44,070 bases of DNA, from assembly GCA_900696615.1 (NCBI GenBank), contig CAADGS010000108.1:1-44070 (forward strand), given 5' to 3'. Below are positions 5,833 to 42,618 of the stretch, piece after piece. This DNA is from an uncultured beta proteobacterium. GTDB taxonomy: Bacteria; Pseudomonadota; Gammaproteobacteria; Burkholderiales; Nitrosomonadaceae. The position numbers and the translations under genes are program-made. The notes under the pieces are model-generated. The model was given only the letters and a program-made list of their open reading frames with translations. It searched no databases and was not told the DNA's origin. Within the stretch, counting starts at the first letter, position 1; every line of letters starts with the position of its first letter.

Positions 5833-8721
5833 ATGTCAGATCCGGTTTTTATTCTTACTGCTACCAATCCATTCGGCTTAAGTGGCTTTTCGGAATTAGT
5901 CGATATTGATGGTGATGGCGACTTGGACGCTTTTAGATCGGGTAACGGTGGCAATACTTTTTTCTCCAGAAATACTGGAACGGCCGAAAATCCCGTGTTT
6001 GCCACTCCACAGACTAACCCATTCGGTTTGACGAATACCGGTAGTGGAATCAACTATGCTTTTGCCGATATCGATAATGATGGCGATGAGGACGCATTCG
6101 TCGGACAAAGCGCGGGTAATATGCTGTTTTTCAGAAACACCGGCACAAGCGCCAATCCTGCTTTCGCTGCATCGGTAATCAATCCATTTGGCTTAAGTAA
6201 TGTGGGAGTCAGCGTTGATCCTACTTTTGTTGATATCGATGGCGATGGGGATATGGATGCCATGATCGGGGAATACGACGGGGGTCTGTATTTTTTCAAA
6301 AACACCGGTACAAGCGCCAATCCGGTATTTGCTGCGGCTGTCAGTAACCCATTTGGCCTCAACGGTGTGTATGGAAATTCCAGTCCTACTTTTGTCGATA
6401 TCGACGGCGATGGCGATTTGGATGCTTTTATCGGTTCGAATCATTATACGTTCGGAGCGGCTACTTTCTTTTATAGAAACATCGGTACAACCAGTAATCC
6501 GCTATTTTATCGGGTCAGCGAAAGTGCGTTTGGTTTAAGTCAAATCGGAACCTATCCACAACCCACCTTTGCCGATATGGATAATGATGGCGATCAGGAT
6601 GCATTTATTGGAAATGGCAACGGTGCATTTTATTTTGAGAATGCAGGCGCTGGGTACACGCCATCTTTTGACTTTGGCGATACATTCGGTTTAGGCGATG
6701 TAGGGTACAGTCCTGACCCAACCTTTGTCGATATCGACGGCGATGGCGATATGGATGCTTTCGTCGGCGAACGTGATTTTTATGCTAACGAGGGTGGCAA
6801 CACACGTTTTTACGAAAATACGGGAACGGCCAAGAATCCCGCGTTTGCTGCCGCCGTGACCAATCCCTTTGGTTTGACGGATGTTGGAAGTTTCTCCAGT
6901 TCAGCTTTTTTCGATATCGATGGCGATAAGGACTTGGATGCCTTTATCGGCAACTCCAGTGGTAATACATTGTTTTATCGAAATACCGGAACAATTAATA
7001 ATCCGTCATTTGCCATTGCGCAAACCAATCCGTTCGGTTTGAAAGATGCCGGTAATGAAGCGCTTCCCACTTTCACCGATATCGATAAAGATGGCGACCT
7101 GGATGCATTTATCGGTAATGCCGCAGGTAACACATTGTTCTTTAGAAATACCGGCACAAAGAGTAATCCAATATTCGCTGCACCACAAACCAACCCATTC
7201 GGTTTGAATGGCTCCAATCCGACTTTTGTCGATATTGATAAAGATGGCGACCAAGATGTTTTCACCGGCAGCACTGCCACCCGCTTATATTGGAATACGG
7301 GAACAGCAAGCAATCCGCAATTTACCGATGGCGGTTCCGCACCTTTCAGCTTGCCGACAGGCTTCGATCGTACGCGTGTTACCAATCAAACCTTTGTGGA
7401 TATCGACGGTGACGGCGATTTGGATGCTTATGCCACATTTCTATTCAGTTATCACTTTAATGGTTCTTATGGTGGATTTTACATTAACAACAACACGCCG
7501 AACGTCAGCAACTTAACCAGCGCCGAAAAATATACTAAGAACACACCGCTGAATCTTAAAGATATTGTAGTGATCGATCCCGATAGTACGACTGTTACTA
7601 CGACACTGAAGTTATCGAATGCGGCCGCTGGCGGTTTGAGCACGGGAACCTCCGGCACCGTAACGTCAACTTACAATGCGGCAACGGCAACCTGGACAGC
7701 AAGCGGTGCAATCGCCAATGTCAATGCTTTGCTGGCAAACGTGATTTTTACGCCAGCAGCGAATTTTACCGGCGCATTTACTGTGAACGCGAGTGTTTCC
7801 GATGGCACCGCATCGCCGTTGATTGGCAGCAAAAGCTTTACGTCAGGCGCCGGAACATTCCTCACCGCTTCGGCAGGTAACAATATTTTGACCGGCACGG
7901 CATCGAATAACGATACCGTGACTTACGCCACAGCCGGTGCTGCGATTACCGTTAATCTCAATATTACCACGCAACAAAATACCGGCGGTTCGGGATTGGA
8001 TACCATCAAAAATGTCGAGAACCTGCTGGGCAGCGCGTTCAATGATAATTTGACTGGGAACGCCGCCAATAACGTTCTCGCGGGCAATGCTGGAAACGAT
8101 ACGCTGGCTGGCTGGTCGGGAGCGGATACGATGCTGGGTGGTCCAGGGGACGATACGTACCTGGTTGAAAATTCGGGTGATATTGTGCTTGAAAAAGTCA
8201 ATGAAGGGATAGATACGGTCAGCAGCAGGTTGACGTACACCTTGCCTGCCAATGTGGAAAATTTGACGCTGACGGGAATCTCCACGGTCAATGGCACTGG
8301 CAATTCGTCGAACAATATCATGATTGGAAACAACGCTGCCAATCAATTGCTGGGTGGAGCCGGAAGCGATACGATTGATGGCGGCAGAGGCGCGAACAGT
8401 ATGACGGGTGGAACGGGAAATGATTTTTTCAAGTTCACGACAACGGGTCATATCGATGCCATTACCGATTATGACGTTCCGAACGACACCATCCTACTTG
8501 ACAACGCCGTATTCGCGGCATTAGGGCCGGCTGGCACGCTGCCTGGGGCACAATTCAGGATTGGCGCCAATGCATTGGATGCGAATGATCACATCATTTA
8601 TAACAGTTTAACTGGTGCGTTGTTATACGACGCGAATGGAAGCGGTGTTGGTGCAGTGCAACAGATTGCCACCCTAAGTGGCGGGCTGGCTATGACCAAT
8701 GCGGACTTTGTGGTGATTTAG
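5833..8721 (+). CDS. Large VCBS/FG-GAP repeat protein with RTX C-terminus
   Basis: 962 residues in three parts. Residues 1-560 form ten repeats of about 55 residues, each pairing NPFGL with a calcium-type loop (DIDGDGDLDAF) and usually NTGT..NP.F. Residues about 561-675 look like a cadherin-like domain (TPLNLKDIVVIDPD; VIFTPAANFTG). From about 680 there are RTX nonapeptides (GNAGNDTLAG, GGPGDDTY, LLGGAGSDTIDGG) and a C-terminal domain typical of type I secretion substrates. There is no N-terminal signal, consistent with ABC-type export from the C-terminus, but no transporter is in the window. A strong AGGAGAGT site precedes the ATG. Likely a calcium-stabilised cell-surface or secreted protein; adhesin is one guess and the ligand is unknown. 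Confidence 0.88.
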   Translation: MSDPVFILTATNPFGLSGFSELVDIDGDGDLDAFRSGNGGNTFFSRNTGTAENPVFATPQTNPFGLTNTGSGINYAFADIDNDGDEDAFVGQSAGNMLFFRNTGTSANPAFAASVINPFGLSNVGVSVDPTFVDIDGDGDMDAMIGEYDGGLYFFKNTGTSANPVFAAAVSNPFGLNGVYGNSSPTFVDIDGDGDLDAFIGSNHYTFGAATFFYRNIGTTSNPLFYRVSESAFGLSQIGTYPQPTFADMDNDGDQDAFIGNGNGAFYFENAGAGYTPSFDFGDTFGLGDVGYSPDPTFVDIDGDGDMDAFVGERDFYANEGGNTRFYENTGTAKNPAFAAAVTNPFGLTDVGSFSSSAFFDIDGDKDLDAFIGNSSGNTLFYRNTGTINNPSFAIAQTNPFGLKDAGNEALPTFTDIDKDGDLDAFIGNAAGNTLFFRNTGTKSNPIFAAPQTNPFGLNGSNPTFVDIDKDGDQDVFTGSTATRLYWNTGTASNPQFTDGGSAPFSLPTGFDRTRVTNQTFVDIDGDGDLDAYATFLFSYHFNGSYGGFYINNNTPNVSNLTSAEKYTKNTPLNLKDIVVIDPDSTTVTTTLKLSNAAAGGLSTGTSGTVTSTYNAATATWTASGAIANVNALLANVIFTPAANFTGAFTVNASVSDGTASPLIGSKSFTSGAGTFLTASAGNNILTGTASNNDTVTYATAGAAITVNLNITTQQNTGGSGLDTIKNVENLLGSAFNDNLTGNAANNVLAGNAGNDTLAGWSGADTMLGGPGDDTYLVENSGDIVLEKVNEGIDTVSSRLTYTLPANVENLTLTGISTVNGTGNSSNNIMIGNNAANQLLGGAGSDTIDGGRGANSMTGGTGNDFFKFTTTGHIDAITDYDVPNDTILLDNAVFAALGPAGTLPGAQFRIGANALDANDHIIYNSLTGALLYDANGSGVGAVQQIATLSGGLAMTNADFVVI
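5853..7490 (+). repeat. Ten intragenic tandem repeats, period about 165 bp
   Basis: The DNA behind the ten protein repeats. The unit is mostly 55 codons, with copies of 48-60 codons. The most regular copies are numbers 2, 3, 7 and 8. Copies 5, 6, 9 and 10 have diverged, and copy 10 lacks the NTGT half. Such arrays can gain or lose units by recombination. Confidence 0.8.
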
Positions 8722-20633: not shown

Positions 20634-21386
20634 TTAAGTAATGCAGGTAGAATTACCCATTTTTATTTTCAAACGAACAATATCATTGATTTGTACATGC
20701 TTATTGTCAATTGTAATAATATTTTCATCCTGAAGCTTGGAAAAAGCCCGACTGACTGTTTCTAATTTAAGTCCAAGGTAACTGCCTATTTCTTCTCTTG
20801 TCATGCGTAAGTTGAAATTGTATTCAGAGTAACCACGCATTACAAATCTACGTGACAAGTTCAGTAAAAAGGTTGCCAATCGTTCTTCGGCTTTCATACT
20901 GCCAAGAAGTAGCATTACACCATGATCTCGCACTATTTCGCGACTCATTATTTTATGAAAATGATGCATCAGAGAAGGAATTGTGCGGCTAATTTCTTCT
21001 AATTTTGCAAATGGAATCTCGCATACTTCGCTATGCTCCAGCGCAATGGCATCACAAGTGTGTATTTCTGTACTAATAGCATCTAGACCTAGCAATTCAC
21101 CCGTCATATGAAAACCGGTCACCTGTTGCCGACCATCTTGCTCAAGAATACATGTTTTAAAAAAACCACTTCGAATCGCAAACAACGATTGGAATTTTGA
21201 ACCTGCGCGATATAAATATCCGCTTCGTGAGATTCTGCGTTTATGACTGGCTATATCACCGAGTACTCGAATTTCTTCTTCATTCAGACCAACCGGCAAA
21301 CATAGTTCACGCAAACTGCAAGTTGAACAACTTGATTTTATATGTGAAATATCATGGTGAATATTCAACAAAGTTTGTAATGACAC
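20634..21386 (-). CDS. fnr: FNR-type oxygen-sensing transcription regulator
   Basis: Activates anaerobic or micro-aerobic genes when its oxygen-labile 4Fe-4S cluster is intact. Cys20, Cys23, Cys29 (SCSTCSLRELC) and Cys111 match the four cluster ligands of E. coli FNR. A cyclic-nucleotide-type sensor fold covers about residues 30-150. The C-terminal helix-turn-helix REEIGSYLGLKLETVSRAFSKLQ carries the E-x-x-S-R recognition residues that read TTGAT half-sites. 250 residues is typical. The gene is divergent from the HemN-like gene. A perfect FNR box lies 41 bases upstream of its start and overlaps a possible -35, suggesting autoregulation. Confidence 0.94.
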   Translation of the reverse strand: MSLQTLLNIHHDISHIKSSCSTCSLRELCLPVGLNEEEIRVLGDIASHKRRISRSGYLYRAGSKFQSLFAIRSGFFKTCILEQDGRQQVTGFHMTGELLGLDAISTEIHTCDAIALEHSEVCEIPFAKLEEISRTIPSLMHHFHKIMSREIVRDHGVMLLLGSMKAEERLATFLLNLSRRFVMRGYSEYNFNLRMTREEIGSYLGLKLETVSRAFSKLQDENIITIDNKHVQINDIVRLKIKMGNSTCIT

Positions 21387-21426: not shown

Positions 21427-21440
21427 TTGATCTGAATCAA
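21427..21440. promoter_or_regulatory. Perfect FNR box between fnr and the HemN-like gene
   Basis: TTGATCTGAATCAA fits the TTGAT-N4-ATCAA consensus exactly. Rightwards, CATAAT at 21462-21467 gives an expected start near 21474, placing the box centre close to -41 as in class II FNR activation. Leftwards, TTGATT (21440-21435) and TGATAA (21417-21412) are 17 bases apart, so a bound FNR would cover the -35 of fnr. Confidence 0.8.
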
Positions 21441-21623: not shown

Positions 21624-22985
21624 ATGTTAGTTTCTGATTATTTTCAAATTGACTCTGATCTTATTCGCCATTTTGGATACTATGATGCGAGTTATCGTGT
21701 TTACCCTGAGATCAGATATTTTACGGAAGCATTTGATACGCATGCTTATTCAACATGGCTTAGTCACCACAAAACGGCACGTTTTTGTCGCACATCCTCA
21801 TTATATATTCATCTTCCATTTGATCTTTCTCCGCGGTATTACTGCCATCTTAATCAGATTAAGTTCGCTGATAAAGATAGCGCCAAAAAGTATTGCGAGT
21901 ATCTGTTGCGTGAAATAGAACTTCAAGGTCAATTATTCAAAGATGCCCCAATGGTGGAGCAATTATATTTCGGTGACGCCCCAGTTTTTTTTAATCATGC
22001 ACAATTAGATAGCATTATTCACACAATAGGTCAAAATTTTAACTTAATGAAAGATGGTAAGTTTTGCATCGAAATTGATTCAAGGCAGATTTCAAAGCAT
22101 TTTCTTCCAGCATTAAGAGAGATGGGTTTTAACTTTATAGTAATCGTTGTACAGGATTTCGATCGAAGCATGCATCGATCAATACGCAACACTCAGATTG
22201 AAAATAAAGCGCTACACGCTATCCGTGATGCATATCATAGTGGTTTCAAAACAATCAGAATTGAATTGTTTTACGGACTACCTAAACAAGATTTGGAAGA
22301 TTTTGCATATATAGTGGAAAGAATCATTGCCGCTAATCCTCATCAAATCAATTTATTGAGCTATCACCATCACTTTTCACAGCTAAAATCACCAAAAAAT
22401 ATTAATTCAAAAGAATCACAAAGCGAGGATCTCAAATGCGAGATGTTGCTGTTTGCCATAACTAATTTAACCGATGCGGGTTATATTTATATTGGAATGG
22501 GGCTTTTCGTTAAAGGCGGAGATCCATTAGTGACTGCGAAGCGTCAAGGCAGCCGTCATTATGGCTTGCAAGGTTACTCAGTTTATCCTGAAAATTGCTG
22601 TGTTGGACTAGGTCTTTCAAGTGTTGGCAGCACCGGGCCAATATTGAATCAAAATACCAATAATCTAAGAGACTATTGCAGCAAATTGGAACACAATATA
22701 CTCCCAGTATGGCGTGGTATTGAATTAAATAGTGATGATTTAATGCGGCGTTCTGTCATACAAGCACTGATTAGCCATTCGGTGCTTTCAATCGAGTCTG
22801 TGGAAACCTTTTTTCCTATCGATTTTGAAAATTATTTTTCAAAAGAATTAACAGAACTTGCAGCGTATGCACGATCTGGATTGATAAATTTGAATGACGA
22901 CGAGATCGTTGTTACGCCAAAAGGACAACTACTGATAAGTAATATTTGCGCAGTTTTTGATAAATACCTGCGTACCAGTCAATAG
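21624..22985 (+). CDS. HemN-like protein lacking the radical-SAM cysteine motif
   Basis: Aligns along its length with oxygen-independent coproporphyrinogen III oxidase: SLYIHLPF, CIEIDSRQI, GFKTIRIELFYGLPKQ, HYGLQGYSVYP, PVWRGIEL and the C-terminal KGQLLISNICAVFDKYL. HemN binds its 4Fe-4S cluster by CxxxCxxC after HIPF. Here the segment reads HLPFDLSPRYYCHLN: the first two cluster positions are Asp67 and Arg71, only Cys74 remains, and the fourth HemN cysteine is Leu76. The SAM-binding GGGTP is replaced by FGDAP (116-120). It therefore probably cannot do radical chemistry. The reading frame is intact and sits under an FNR box, so it looks like a repurposed paralogue (porphyrin or haem binding, or regulation) rather than a decaying gene; its function is unknown. 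The ribosome site is weak. Confidence 0.85.
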   Translation: MLVSDYFQIDSDLIRHFGYYDASYRVYPEIRYFTEAFDTHAYSTWLSHHKTARFCRTSSLYIHLPFDLSPRYYCHLNQIKFADKDSAKKYCEYLLREIELQGQLFKDAPMVEQLYFGDAPVFFNHAQLDSIIHTIGQNFNLMKDGKFCIEIDSRQISKHFLPALREMGFNFIVIVVQDFDRSMHRSIRNTQIENKALHAIRDAYHSGFKTIRIELFYGLPKQDLEDFAYIVERIIAANPHQINLLSYHHHFSQLKSPKNINSKESQSEDLKCEMLLFAITNLTDAGYIYIGMGLFVKGGDPLVTAKRQGSRHYGLQGYSVYPENCCVGLGLSSVGSTGPILNQNTNNLRDYCSKLEHNILPVWRGIELNSDDLMRRSVIQALISHSVLSIESVETFFPIDFENYFSKELTELAAYARSGLINLNDDEIVVTPKGQLLISNICAVFDKYLRTSQ

Positions 22986-23046: not shown

Positions 23047-23367
23047 TTACTTATTAACTTGACTATTAGCCAAGATATATTCTGCCAAACGATCTGCCGA
23101 TTCACCTTGAATATTTTTAAATGCCGGCATTCTCATGCTGCCAGATTGAAATTTTTGAATAATCGCTTCTTTATTGGCAACTTTCTCACTTAGTACCATC
23201 GCAACATTAGCGCTTAGAGGTTTGTGACATTCTGTGCAAGCGGTACTGAAGATCTGTTCACCGGAAGCATCTGCAGGAGGCGTGTAATCTCTACCAGCCC
23301 CGCAGCCAACCAAAATCGGAATTGCCACAAACATTGCCAACAAAAATTTTGTTTCTAATTTTTTCAT
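23047..23367 (-). CDS. Monohaem cytochrome c lipoprotein
   Basis: A signal peptide ends in the lipobox LVGC (Cys22), so the protein should be membrane-anchored and periplasm-facing. The haem attachment motif CTECH is at residues 44-48 and the probable distal Met ligand at 80 (RMPAF). The mature size of about 85 residues fits small class I cytochromes. The likely role is electron transfer; the partner is not evident. It is convergent with the HemN-like gene and has its own promoter. Confidence 0.9.
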   Translation of the reverse strand: MKKLETKFLLAMFVAIPILVGCGAGRDYTPPADASGEQIFSTACTECHKPLSANVAMVLSEKVANKEAIIQKFQSGSMRMPAFKNIQGESADRLAEYILANSQVNK

Positions 23368-24444: not shown

Positions 24445-27400
24445 ATGAAAGTTGGATGGGAAATTGCTATTTACAGATGGCGCAAAAAGCTCTCACTGTC
24501 AATATTTTGTCTTATTTCAATAACCCATTGTTTATTTTATGTGAATAAAAGCTATGCGTCATCTGCCTGTCAATTTGAAGTTGCGCGAATTGTATCAGTA
24601 CAAGGTATGATAGAACTGCGTCGAGCTCAAGAAACAACATGGCAAATGGCTAGCATGAATACGGTTGTTTGTGGGGGTGATATGATTCGCGCTCGTTCGC
24701 ACAGTCGAGCGGCATTGCGGCTAAAAAACGAGAGCGTGCTGCGGTTAGATCAAAAATCCAGCATTACCTTCCCCGGAATACAAGAGGAAAAAGACATTTC
24801 TCTCCTGGATTTATTCGAAGGCGCGATACATATCATTACGCGCACACCCAAACCCTTCAAAATAAGAACACCATTTGTCAATGCCAGTGTTGAAGGTACA
24901 GAATTTTTTGTCGGCATTCATGACGATAGTACAAAAGTTGTTGTTTACGAAGGCCGAGTGGCTGTCACAAACGATCTTGGCAGTATTGCATTAAACGACC
25001 AAGAGGCAGCTATTACTGACAATGGACAAGCACCGCGCAAGGAAATCATTATTCGACCTATAGATGCTGTGCAATGGGCACTCCATTATCCAACCATCCT
25101 GGATTACTGGCAGGATAATGAATTAATAAGTGAGAGTGAAACAAGTCGTTTGGTTCGCCAAGCAAGCCGCTTGCTAAACGTTGGTCAAGCGGAGGAAGCT
25201 AAAGAAATTTTTCAACAAGTACTGCAACTGGAATCAAATAACAGCGATGCACATGCACTACTTGCCATCATCGCCGTGTCTCAAAATGAAAAAAGTCCAG
25301 CACGCGATTTAGCCAACCGAGCAGTTACACTCAATTCAAAATCCGCTGCTGCACATCTTGCACTATCCTATTCGCAACAGGCATATTTTGAAATTGAGGC
25401 GGCACTGAAAAGTGTACAAAAGGCATTGACGCTCGATGCTCAGAACGCGCTGATTTGGGCGCGGCTAGCCGAATTGCAGATGTCTGTAGGTAATATGGAT
25501 CGTGCATTAGATGCAGCGCATCAAGCAGTAAGCTTAAATTCTAAACTGGCTAGAACTCAAGCCATCCTGGGTTTTGCACACCTGACACAGATCGATATCT
25601 CAGCAGCAAAAATGGCTTTTAAAGAAGCAATTGCGCTTGATCAAACTGATCCAATGCCACGATTGGGTTTGGGCATAGCCCTGATACGTGAAGGCGAATT
25701 GGAAGCAGGCCGAATTGAACTAGAAATTGCTGCCAGCCTAGATCCAGCCAATTCACTAATCCGCAGTTACCTAGGGAAAGCGTATTTCGAGGAGAAACGC
25801 TATCCGCTTGCCGGTACTCAGTTCGATCTTGCAAAAGAACGCGATCCGAAAGACCCGACGCCATGGTTTTACGATGCGATTCAGAAACAAACCCAGAATC
25901 GACCAATTGAAGCCTTAAGAGACATTCAAAAATCCATAGAACTGAACAACAATCGCGCGGTATACCGCTCAAAATTTCTCCTCGATCGCGATGAAGCGGC
26001 TCGCGGGTCGAGCTTAGCACGCATTTTTGAAAACTTAGGATTTGAAAAGCGCGCAATCATGGAAACCGCGAAATCACTGAGTTTCGATCCTTCAAATCAT
26101 TCAGCACATCGATTTCTTTCAGATATTTATGCCAACACTCCAAGGCATGAAGCGGCACGAGTTAGTGAATTGCTGCAAGCTCAGTTACTGCAACCTATTA
26201 ATGTTAACCCGGTACAACCACATATGGCCGTAGCCGATCTCAATATCATTACCAATACAGGCCCATCCTCCCCAGGATTCAATGAATTTGCGCCATTAAT
26301 GGAGCGCAGCAAACCGCAACTGGTTGCTTCTGGAATAATTGGTGGAAACGACACGGTGGGAAATGAACTGGCTTTTTCAAAGCTTTATCAAAGTACTTCT
26401 ATAAGTTTAGGGCAGTTTCATTATGAATCCAATGGATTTCGCACTAATAACAATCAAAATCACGATATTCTAAATGCTTTTGTACAACATGCACTAACTT
26501 CCAGGTTGAATATTCAGGCCGAGATACGAACTCGGTCAACTGATCAGGGTAATTTGTTACTTAATTTTGAGAGCGATAATACTAATCCTCGGGCCGCACA
26601 AAATAGAATACACCAGAAAATTCATGACAACTCGGTACGCATAGGTGCTAAGTATGATCTAATGCCTAATCAGCATATTATTTTTTCGGGACAGTTTAAT
26701 GATAGAAAGCTTCAGGAAATCAACAATCCGTTTCCGCTAACATCCCCACTTATTAATTCAAAGATTGAATCATATCAAACCGAAATTCAACATCAATTTC
26801 GTAATCACTGGGTGAATGTGATAACCGGTTCTGGCGTTTTTCGAACAAGCTTTGATCAAAAAACACAACAGATAAGTGCCATAAACAACAAAACAACTAG
26901 TTGTTGCACACATTCAGATGGAAATAGAGATAAAACTAATGGATATATCTATGTCAATCTAAACTTTATCCCAAATATAAATACAACCGTGGGCTTTAGC
27001 TATGATTCCTATAATGAAACTGGCTTGCCATCGAGTGATGGATTTAACCCTAAATTTGGTTTTCAGTGGAATATTATTAGTAATCTACGACTACGAATGG
27101 CTTGGTTTGAATCAATTAAATCCCCTTTAGCTACAAACCAGACTATCGAACCTACCCAAGTAGCAGGATTTAATCAATTATTTGATGATATTAACGGAAC
27201 AAAATCTCGTCGCATGGGAGTAGGATTCGATGGGCACTATCAAAATAAAATTTTTAGTGGATTTGAAATTTCAAAACGAGATTTAAGTTCACCAAGATTT
27301 TCTGGTAACGGTAATTTCTTGGATCATGACGAAAGCTTATATTACGGCTACCTATATGGGATACTGCACAAAAACTGGACCGCAAGAAGCGAAGCACGGT

Positions 27401-27759
27401 TTGAGAGATTTTCTAGGCCACTTGATAAACTACAACTAATTGACACTTTGAGTGTTCCTATCGGTATTGATTATTTTAGCGAAAAAGGAATTTTTGCTAA
27501 CTTAACTGGCACATTCGTTCGCCAGAAAGTAAAACGTGAAGGAAATGTAGAAAATGAAGGTACTGAGAAATATTTCCTGATAGATGCATCGTTGGGTTAT
27601 CGGCTTCCCAATCGTAGAGGGATTTTAAGTTTGGAAGCAAGAAATTTGTTTGATGAACATTTTCTTTTTCAGCACATAAATTATTCAACATCCCAGGCTG
27701 TTGATTCACGTTTTGTACCAACACGGACAATCTTTGCTCGTGTTACCTTTAATTTCTAA
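24445..27759 (+). CDS. FecR-domain / TPR / outer-membrane barrel fusion protein
   Basis: 1104 residues. A signal peptide ends near KSYASSA (about 38). Residues about 45-195 form a FecR domain (VSVQGMIELRR, GDMIRARSHSRAALRLKN, FKIRTPFVNASVEGTEFFV). Residues about 230-590 carry consecutive TPR-like helical repeats (SDAHALLAIIAVSQ, AAAHLALSYSQ, ALIWARLAELQ). From about 610 to the end the sequence has alternating strands like a TonB-receptor barrel (YRLPNRRGILSLEARNLFDEHFL) and ends in Phe (VTFNF). Canonical FecR is a separate inner-membrane anti-sigma regulator; here the domain would sit in the periplasm tethered to an outer-membrane barrel. No plug domain or TonB box is evident, so it may not be a receptor. 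Transcription appears CRP-controlled. A lipoprotein gene follows. Confidence 0.82.
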   Translation: MKVGWEIAIYRWRKKLSLSIFCLISITHCLFYVNKSYASSACQFEVARIVSVQGMIELRRAQETTWQMASMNTVVCGGDMIRARSHSRAALRLKNESVLRLDQKSSITFPGIQEEKDISLLDLFEGAIHIITRTPKPFKIRTPFVNASVEGTEFFVGIHDDSTKVVVYEGRVAVTNDLGSIALNDQEAAITDNGQAPRKEIIIRPIDAVQWALHYPTILDYWQDNELISESETSRLVRQASRLLNVGQAEEAKEIFQQVLQLESNNSDAHALLAIIAVSQNEKSPARDLANRAVTLNSKSAAAHLALSYSQQAYFEIEAALKSVQKALTLDAQNALIWARLAELQMSVGNMDRALDAAHQAVSLNSKLARTQAILGFAHLTQIDISAAKMAFKEAIALDQTDPMPRLGLGIALIREGELEAGRIELEIAASLDPANSLIRSYLGKAYFEEKRYPLAGTQFDLAKERDPKDPTPWFYDAIQKQTQNRPIEALRDIQKSIELNNNRAVYRSKFLLDRDEAARGSSLARIFENLGFEKRAIMETAKSLSFDPSNHSAHRFLSDIYANTPRHEAARVSELLQAQLLQPINVNPVQPHMAVADLNIITNTGPSSPGFNEFAPLMERSKPQLVASGIIGGNDTVGNELAFSKLYQSTSISLGQFHYESNGFRTNNNQNHDILNAFVQHALTSRLNIQAEIRTRSTDQGNLLLNFESDNTNPRAAQNRIHQKIHDNSVRIGAKYDLMPNQHIIFSGQFNDRKLQEINNPFPLTSPLINSKIESYQTEIQHQFRNHWVNVITGSGVFRTSFDQKTQQISAINNKTTSCCTHSDGNRDKTNGYIYVNLNFIPNINTTVGFSYDSYNETGLPSSDGFNPKFGFQWNIISNLRLRMAWFESIKSPLATNQTIEPTQVAGFNQLFDDINGTKSRRMGVGFDGHYQNKIFSGFEISKRDLSSPRFSGNGNFLDHDESLYYGYLYGILHKNWTARSEARFERFSRPLDKLQLIDTLSVPIGIDYFSEKGIFANLTGTFVRQKVKREGNVENEGTEKYFLIDASLGYRLPNRRGILSLEARNLFDEHFLFQHINYSTSQAVDSRFVPTRTIFARVTFNF

Positions 27760-41217: not shown

Positions 41218-42618
41218 TCAAACCCGCTTCCGCTTCGTGCACGATTGAGTTAATAGTATGAGAATCAGAACCAGCGCCGATATTAATATCACTGCTAGAA
41301 TTAGAATTTCTACGGGAGTACCCGAAGACTGATGTTGGTCCGTATCATGCGCAGCATCTTTTATTGAACCATCTTCGGTTCCTTGAGCAGATTTGAGTTC
41401 TGAATTATCTTCCAAGTTGTCTATTTTGCTGCTTTCACTATCATCAATTTGTTTTTTACCGTTGCTTTCTGGCAGATGAGAAAGTGATTCATATTTTATT
41501 ATTTTGACGCGTTCAGCAACGATACGTTGGTTCTTTTCCACTCGGCCACTTACCTGTATTCGTTGATTCAACCTAAGGTCACCGCTTGTATATCCGGTTT
41601 CAAACAGTACATGTGGAGTAAGCGTAACAATCCAGTTATTTAAGTTTAATTCCTCATCACTGAGTGCGTGGACATACCCTTCAATTATTAAATGATCTAC
41701 ATTGCCCAGGCTATTGCGCGTAGGCTCAATTTCAATGTACTGCGCTTTTAGATAGGCGCCATCCCAATTACCTTCAATCCGTACTTCAGATCCTTGTGTT
41801 AGTTCAGCGGATAAGGATTTGACATCATAGTCAATGCGCGTACCATTAATTTCAAAACCGCTTGAATCAACATGATTGACATAACCATTTATTGTAACTT
41901 CAGCTGAAGATGGAATTGATTCAATATGAGATGCCACAATCGTGCCATCAGCAAATCTATGTCCGCTTACTTGTACCCACTGATCGGTTTTTAAGTTTGA
42001 TAAACTGCCACTATCCGGTAATTGTCCGATTTTTATCGTTTGACCCAATATACGCATTTGATGGGCTTCAGGTTTCAAATCACTAATAGGTCCGACAATA
42101 GCATTATTAACCGCGATATTGCGCGCTATATACGCTCCATCCGACTCTTCTGCTTGCACCGCGATTACTTGACCAACAGTCAGGTCCGTTATTGCCGACA
42201 ATCGACCGTTTACAGAAATGGGGGTGTCAGAATCATACTGAATTTCAACATGATTTACGCACATACTTGAAAATCCGGTAATGGTTCCGATGATTCCAGT
42301 ACCACCGATGCCGGAATCATTTATGGTATTTTTAAGTGTACCTATACTCTCTTCTTCAGAACCGGTTCCTCCCATTCCCCCGTTATTAATACCTGTACCC
42401 CCTATACCGGAATCTTGGGTCGATATGCCTGTACCACCAATCCCGGATACAGCATGCGTTGCAAGATTGATAAGTGAATCATTTGAATTACAGCTATTTT
42501 TTGCTTGTGCTATAACAGAACAAAAAAGCAGTAAGACAGCTATACTCAGTAAATGTACCAGGCAGATACTGAGACGATATACTGCTTCTAATGCAATGGT
42601 ACGCGCTCTGCAACTCAA
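41218..42618 (-). CDS. DUF5666-domain membrane protein with GIGGTG repeats
   Basis: 466 residues with no known function. An N-terminal hydrophobic segment (SICLVHLLSIAVLLLFCSVIAQA) acts as signal or anchor. There are four GIGGTG/GMGGTG motifs at about 57-115 separated by Ser/Asn/Asp-rich spacers. Then come several repeated beta modules of DUF5666 type (VNGRLSAITDLTVGQVIAVQAEESDGAYIA and SNLKTDQWVQVSGHRFADGTIVASHIE patterns). A charged linker leads to a C-terminal membrane helix (VEILILAVILISALVLILILL) and a basic tail. The start is TTG at 42618, 14 bases after the DUF6502 stop, in the same operon. Likely periplasmic and anchored in the inner membrane by its C-terminus. Confidence 0.75.
   Translation of the reverse strand: MSCRARTIALEAVYRLSICLVHLLSIAVLLLFCSVIAQAKNSCNSNDSLINLATHAVSGIGGTGISTQDSGIGGTGINNGGMGGTGSEEESIGTLKNTINDSGIGGTGIIGTITGFSSMCVNHVEIQYDSDTPISVNGRLSAITDLTVGQVIAVQAEESDGAYIARNIAVNNAIVGPISDLKPEAHQMRILGQTIKIGQLPDSGSLSNLKTDQWVQVSGHRFADGTIVASHIESIPSSAEVTINGYVNHVDSSGFEINGTRIDYDVKSLSAELTQGSEVRIEGNWDGAYLKAQYIEIEPTRNSLGNVDHLIIEGYVHALSDEELNLNNWIVTLTPHVLFETGYTSGDLRLNQRIQVSGRVEKNQRIVAERVKIIKYESLSHLPESNGKKQIDDSESSKIDNLEDNSELKSAQGTEDGSIKDAAHDTDQHQSSGTPVEILILAVILISALVLILILLTQSCTKRKRV

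Follow-up and report, generated by a model that had tools for sequence, protein, structure and literature searches.

A HemN-like protein of Nitrosomonas that has lost most of its radical-SAM cluster motif and remains in frame and under purifying selection

What is a HemN-like gene for, once it has lost most of the residues that hold the iron-sulfur cluster of the family and still keeps its complete reading frame next to fnr? This question is raised by a stretch of 44,070 nucleotides (the window) from contig CAADGS010000108.1 of assembly GCA_900696615.1, an uncultured beta proteobacterium of the Nitrosomonadaceae. The original prediction, made from the letters of the DNA, was that the gene had lost catalysis, had retained its fold and had taken up a new role under an oxygen-responsive promoter. 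The features that bear on it are the following.

20634..21386, minus strand: fnr, the divergent neighbour, with cysteines 20, 23, 29 and 122 conserved (PRK11161, 241.6 bits, cut-off 228).
21427..21440, no strand assigned: FNR box TTGATCTGAATCAA, perfect, flanked by fnr and the HemN-like gene (match to the FNR consensus).
21624..22985, plus strand: HemN-like gene, 453 aa, uninterrupted (translation of the open reading frame; TIGR00538 score).
21822..21851, plus strand: degenerate [4Fe-4S] motif, residues 67-76, with D, R, C and L for the four cysteines of C...C..C.C (alignments; pLDDT below 50 at 68-77).
21972..21983, plus strand: degenerate SAM-binding loop, residues 117-120, GDAP for GGGTP with one residue deleted (alignments).
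22728..22934, plus strand: HemN_C domain, residues 369-437 (PF06969, 31 bits; strongest constraint in the pooled motif-lost pairs).
23047..23367, minus strand: small c-type cytochrome, the convergent neighbour (Pfam profile search; locus comparison).

Three other proteins of the window have unusual architectures: one of 1104 residues (24445-27759) whose single chain combines a FecR domain with TPR repeats and a TonB-dependent-receptor-like barrel, one of 962 residues (5833-8721) with FG-GAP repeats and RTX calcium-binding repeats, and a DUF5666 protein (41218-42618) with repeated GIGGTG-type stretches near its N-terminus.

The frame of the HemN-like gene, as predicted, runs over 453 codons from ATG to stop without a break, both in the list of open reading frames and in the translation. 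By score its product is a member of the HemN family. TIGR00538 matches residues 8-451 with 341.7 bits (cut-off 324.95), phmmer aligns residues 9-451 with HemN of Escherichia coli (1OLT) at an E value of 3.7e-76, and the HemN_C profile passes its cut-off of 24 bits. The Radical_SAM profile (PF04055) reaches 28.9 bits, short by 0.6 of its gathering cut-off of 29.5. An antisense gene as the source of the constraint described below was rejected, since the window holds no other open reading frame of at least 100 aa that overlaps the HemN-like gene in any frame; the one antisense frame that was translated has stops throughout.

The alignment with 1OLT places C62, C66, C69 and C71 opposite D67, R71, C74 and L76 of the window protein. 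The three replacements named in the original prediction (Asp67, Arg71 and Leu76) are therefore correct, CxxxCxxCxC is absent, and C74 is the sole cysteine of the four to remain. GGGTP is absent as well. F116 aligns with W110 and P120 with P115, and G117-D118-A119 cover the four residues in between; the predicted change of GGGTP into FGDAP is real, but it is not a swap of equal length, because one residue has been deleted. Aligners disagree on its identity, with the gap at G112 in the phmmer alignment with 1OLT and at T114 in other alignments. E150 is still present, as is C74. With both the motif and the SAM loop broken, catalysis by the HemN route appears very unlikely from the sequence, in agreement with the predicted loss of catalysis.

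The nearest relative (L003, 88% identity, from a different assembly) has the same D/R/C/L residues and the same one-residue deletion, so the pattern does not stem from a local sequence error, and fresh local damage was rejected on the same grounds. The gap in the SAM loop is also found in two further congeners (L004 and L005), and the Asp appears in the window row only (in one alignment).

Outside the genus the motif is almost invariant. An order-level sample of 120 genomes gave 97 with a HemN above the cut-off, two in the genus of the window and 95 outside it. These 95 (30 taken from the best-scoring of the 97 matches and the other 65 read for the motif only) keep the three cluster ligands without exception and all four cysteines in 94 cases. 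All four are also present in 48 of 48 other betaproteobacterial loci (taken from a set of 80). Two of the 65 order-sample sequences do not differ, in the part compared, from loci among the 48, and in total 140 of 141 distinct HemN from outside the genus have the complete set. This conservation excludes chance as an explanation of the loss in the window. The one non-genus HemN of the 95 that departs from the rule (L246) has His in place of the fourth cysteine and keeps the three ligands; 64 of the 65 sequences read for the motif keep all four.

The picture within Nitrosomonas is very different. We compared 46 full-length rows, leaving out L046 (C-terminal part only, at a contig start) and L052 (another genus, with four cysteines). 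All three cluster ligands are present in 29 of them and at least one is missing in 17, while the fourth cysteine is absent in 43 (replaced by Phe in 19) and only three rows have all four. The exact D/R/C/L combination was seen in the window and its closest relative and in none of the other rows. Normal CxxxCxxC in close relatives, which would have pointed to error or recent decay, is missing from that nearest orthologue and present in congeners at 59-60% identity and below, of which 26 of 29 lack the fourth cysteine. The Thr of GGGTP is kept in 26 of 28 Nitrosomonas rows with three ligands (one alignment).

On a tree built with the motif columns excluded, ligand loss amounts to eight changes by parsimony, or nine clades made up of losses only. 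The tree comes from a quick search in which nine of 56 inner branches have support below 80%, several of the deeper ones among them, and the number of losses is thus approximate. The 17 genes concerned are all in frame. Two of the affected lineages are represented by records without a MAG label, N. ureae Nm13 (C, R, R and S at the four positions) and strain JL21 (R, C, a gap and F), and two genes, with LRPG and LHPG, have none of the four cysteines left and still show an omega of 0.13. The window gene is not a single odd gene; it stands late in a remodelling that spans the genus and in which ligands were lost repeatedly. Two observations stand apart. The three genes with four motif cysteines (L026, L027 and L029) are nested within a clade that lacks the fourth and retain only four to six of the 31 canonical residues that are rare in the genus (see below), which could reflect regain, retention or misplacement. 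One contig filed as a Bacteroidetes MAG (L113) carries a Nitrosomonas-type copy of the gene at 54% identity, probably a binning error.

A way to see whether anything is still held by selection is to look at divergence that took place after the loss. Since the window gene and its 88% relative have the identical loss, their divergence post-dates it by parsimony. The maximum likelihood omega of this pair is 0.24 (2dlnL 51.6 against omega 1), far from the dN/dS near 1 that would have contradicted the original prediction, and the gene combines an unbroken frame with purifying selection that continued once the active site was gone, as is expected of a pseudoenzyme. In neutral simulations of the gene about one run in 300 remained without a stop codon. 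Other motif-lost pairs range from 0.13 to 0.35 (L004-L005 0.18, L043-L047 0.13, L037-L040 0.27) and motif-kept pairs, by the same method, from 0.12 to 0.28; constraint thus tends to be weaker where the motif is lost, with overlapping ranges. It is also much weaker than in the neighbouring regulator (Nei-Gojobori omega between the window and L003 of 0.214, versus 0.023 for FNR).

The constraint is not evenly distributed along the protein. For a regional test six motif-lost and seven motif-kept pairs were picked by hand from the tree as close sisters; in one of the lost pairs (L041-L042) the ancestor may have had all ligands, as the sister L045 keeps them. Omega in lost versus kept pairs was 0.30 versus 0.17 for residues 1-57, 0.21 versus 0.13 for 58-130, 0.23 versus 0.11 for 131-300 and 0.146 versus 0.085 for 301-367. 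In the HemN_C region (368-453) the order is reversed, 0.091 in lost versus 0.133 in kept pairs. The interaction between region and loss, with the split at residue 300, has a z of 3.15 (2.78 to 3.48 when each pair in turn is omitted); for the window-L003 pair alone the regional counts are small. The N-terminus and barrel are relaxed about two-fold after motif loss, and the C-terminal HemN_C domain is still held by selection.

The change in the genus goes well beyond the cysteines. As a canonical reference we used 78 HemN (the 30 best-scoring of the 97 order-sample matches and the 48 of 80 betaproteobacterial loci), a set that leans to canonical HemN because its members were picked as best-scoring or as selected loci. 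Positions conserved in at least 95% of this reference were followed in 45 Nitrosomonas rows (L023, whose frame is broken near the end, was omitted): the canonical residue persists in at least 85% of the rows at 65 positions, in an intermediate share at 40 and in fewer than 30% at 31. The last group includes an N-terminal block around R22 to T28, C71 and R308-N309-F310, some of which presumably contact substrate or SAM in 1OLT. At 14 of the 31 a single new residue occupies at least 75% of the rows (D209 is E and R308 is Y, each in 42 of 45). The window row keeps one canonical residue of the 31, against 13 and 10 in the basal rows L048 and L050, which shows that the remodelling was gradual. The 31 showed no significant enrichment in barrel strands (p 0.19), no significant depletion in the C-domain (p 0.29) and no significant clustering in residues 58-367 (p 0.48). 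Residues 1-57 were enriched, with seven of the 31 changed positions against three of the 65 kept (p 0.012, one of four tests). The three ligands belong to a further group of 22 positions that persist in rows with intact ligands and have decayed in rows without them; none of the 22 falls within residues 368-453. Ligands and other barrel residues therefore go together, on top of the wider change of the genus.

The predicted structure agrees with a retained fold, as had been supposed. The AlphaFold model of the window protein has a mean pLDDT of 81.9 and a pTM of 0.86, with 1OLT as its best PDB match (TM 0.88/0.91). Confidence falls below 50 at residues 1-6, 180-191 and 249-263 and over what used to be the cluster loop (68-77); through HemN_C the block means are about 89-96. 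A three-cysteine protein of N. oligotropha, modelled as a control, reached a pLDDT of 86.6 with values below 50 only at 1-3 and 249-254; unlike in the window model, its cluster loop and its 180s loop both lie above 50.

The surroundings of the gene bear on its descent. In 47 of 48 betaproteobacterial loci canonical hemN has a divergent fnr beside it, and the Nitrosomonas gene has one in 44 of 46, the remaining two beginning at a contig end. This conserved arrangement argues against import, and the gene is best read as a vertical orthologue of betaproteobacterial hemN. Cysteines 20, 23, 29 and 122 of FNR, which we take to bind its sensor cluster, are kept in 44 of 44 rows, in contrast with the HemN-like neighbour. 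On the other flank, 40 of 46 congener loci that carry the gene have the c-type cytochrome, and so do 13 of 13 gene-less fnr loci.

The oxygen-responsive promoter of the original prediction fared less clearly. fnr is indeed adjacent, and the box TTGATCTGAATCAA matches the FNR consensus perfectly, but its distance to fnr is 40 nt, against 183 nt to the hemN ATG, and its target may be fnr. Of 45 loci with the gene, 36 have a perfect box within 110 nt of fnr (the box of L003 has one mismatch); so do four of five loci with remnants of the gene, and none of the eight with neither gene nor remnant. Among these eight empty loci a perfect box stands at 165 nt in L103, a site with a single mismatch within 110 nt in L100 and in L101, and a site at 119 nt, again with a single mismatch, in L094 and in L097. 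The distribution hints that the box goes with hemN, with the qualification that the eight empty loci may lack independence and that the box is closer to fnr. FNR is a putative regulator of the HemN-like gene. In the available part of a meta-transcriptomic study of Nitrosomonas FNR regulons (PMC8510549), hemN appears in the reference list only.

The gene is far from universal in the genus. A match at an E value of 1e-30 was found in 46 of 85 genomes, and fnr in 82. Some of the 39 genomes without a match are incomplete, and one (G072) has a copy truncated where its contig stops. From the genomes without a match we selected 13 gene-less fnr loci, excluding L091 (cut by a contig start). In these the interval between fnr and cytochrome measures 188-1230 bp, compared with 1661 in the window, and holds remnants of hemN in five cases and none in eight. 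The remnants (L090, L092, L093, L095 and L096) lie between an intact fnr and the cytochrome c, and their surviving pieces consist of, or include, some of the C-terminal region (in L090 13 residues only); this bias is tempered by the fact that C-terminal conservation also makes such pieces easier to detect. Absence from 39 of 85 genomes, together with the remnants, means that any function of the gene is dispensable.

As to haem synthesis without HemN, HemF is present in 118 of 125 genomes of the family (97 of 99 good ones), so that HemN should be unneeded when oxygen is present. The source genome itself holds HemF and a normal HemW (CxxxCxxCxF, HNMNYW). The possibility of a canonical hemN elsewhere in this genome was checked and rejected: no second HemN was found, although at 92.5% completeness a copy could have been missed, and the matches were HemW and one other protein, which looks to us like MiaB. 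Two genomes (G048 and G068) have two HemF genes each.

Taken together, we think it probable that HemN, once redundant, turned into a pseudoenzyme without a cluster, and that the function it retains is non-catalytic and largely C-terminal. HemF would have made hemN redundant in Nitrosomonas, which are aerobic ammonia oxidisers. The genus would then, in the course of its evolution, have lost the fourth cysteine and many canonical HemN residues, and with them, probably, the coproporphyrinogen dehydrogenase activity. In the window lineage and about seven or eight others the cluster ligands and other barrel residues would have decayed together, while the folded protein, above all its HemN_C domain, was kept. 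The protein would be made under low oxygen and would most likely bind haem, a porphyrin or a partner protein. The analogy with CgdH2 and HemW (see below) makes binding of haem or a porphyrin the leading guess, while the data fit a role with a partner protein equally well; the sensing role of the original prediction is likewise a plausible guess. The original interpretation thus holds for the probable loss of catalysis, the predicted fold and the purifying selection, but the gene is not a single oddity and it can be dispensed with.

The strongest competitor is that HemN, superfluous beside HemF, is slowly decaying, an intact frame with a broken motif being a passing stage under weak residual constraint. 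The 39 of 85 genomes without a match, the remnants in five of 13 fnr-cytochrome intervals and an omega that tends to exceed that of motif-kept pairs and is far above that of FNR all speak in its favour. It fits poorly, however, with 17 motif-lost genes from about eight or nine lineages that are all in frame, with an omega clearly below 1 over divergence later than the loss, with constraint focused on the C-terminal domain instead of being lost evenly, and with the 14 changed positions that are mostly fixed for one new residue; we regard it as unlikely, though it has to be taken seriously. Considerably more improbable is that the protein remains a catalyst, either with a cluster held by other ligands (C74 and other residues or a partner protein) or with a barrel that runs a different reaction. 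C74 and E150 do remain, 29 of 46 relatives have three ligands, and 26 of 28 such rows keep the Thr of GGGTP. The SAM loop, though, is broken too, other barrel residues decay alongside the ligands, the LRPG and LHPG genes remain constrained (omega 0.13) without any of the four cysteines, and the cluster loop has a pLDDT below 50. A sequence or assembly error, to which a draft of 159 contigs (2.58 Mb, 92.5% complete) could be prone, can be practically dismissed given the identical residues and deletion in another assembly at 88% identity and the further losses in the non-MAG-labelled records of N. ureae Nm13 and JL21.

A bolder reading is conceivable, about which we are rather doubtful: that a radical-SAM enzyme was repeatedly converted, within one genus, into a cluster-free protein with a new, C-terminal and oxygen-regulated function (such as a haem or porphyrin carrier, or a sensor coupled to FNR), and that the states still found today, from four cysteines through three, two, one and none to remnant and deletion, might map the route of this conversion. 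Should the retained function be real, the genus would display, in successive stages and through losses that recurred independently, how a catalyst turns into a non-catalytic protein, and it could be tested which part of a radical-SAM protein is reusable and whether HemN_C binds a ligand alone. There is also a practical side. Since the HemN model accepts the window protein, automatic annotation is likely to call it an oxygen-independent coproporphyrinogen oxidase, and metabolic models of nitrifiers would then credit these organisms with an anaerobic haem synthesis that they probably lack.

No report of a cluster-less HemN in Nitrosomonas was found in those parts of the open-access literature that were available. 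Several related systems can be compared. HemN itself (TIGR00538; 1OLT of E. coli) is matched in full-length homology, a score above the cut-off, the predicted fold, the place beside fnr and HemN_C; the window protein differs in lacking three motif cysteines and 30 of the 31 canonical residues and in its broken SAM loop with a deletion. HemW (TIGR00539) is a member of the HemN family without HemN activity, and the 43 of 46 Nitrosomonas relatives without the fourth cysteine, 19 of them with Phe, recall it. The window protein was nevertheless rejected as a HemW, with 63.9 bits against a cut-off of 205.4 and no HNxxYW in its translation, and the genome has a separate, true HemW. HNxxYW is described as the haem-binding motif of HemW in the accessible portions of PMC10320005 and PMC11834973, the latter citing evidence for HemW as a haem chaperone. 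PsgB (TIGR04419) is by its NCBIfam name a HemN-related non-iron pseudo-SAM protein; membership was again rejected, at 31.1 bits for a cut-off of 300. The nearest published precedent for the proposed role is, as far as the available text of PMC10320005 goes, CgdH2 of Campylobacter jejuni, a HemN-like protein that binds haem (Kd 4.9 uM) and has no dehydrogenase activity, but which keeps CxxxCxxC and belongs to a menaquinone methyltransferase-like branch and not to HemN.
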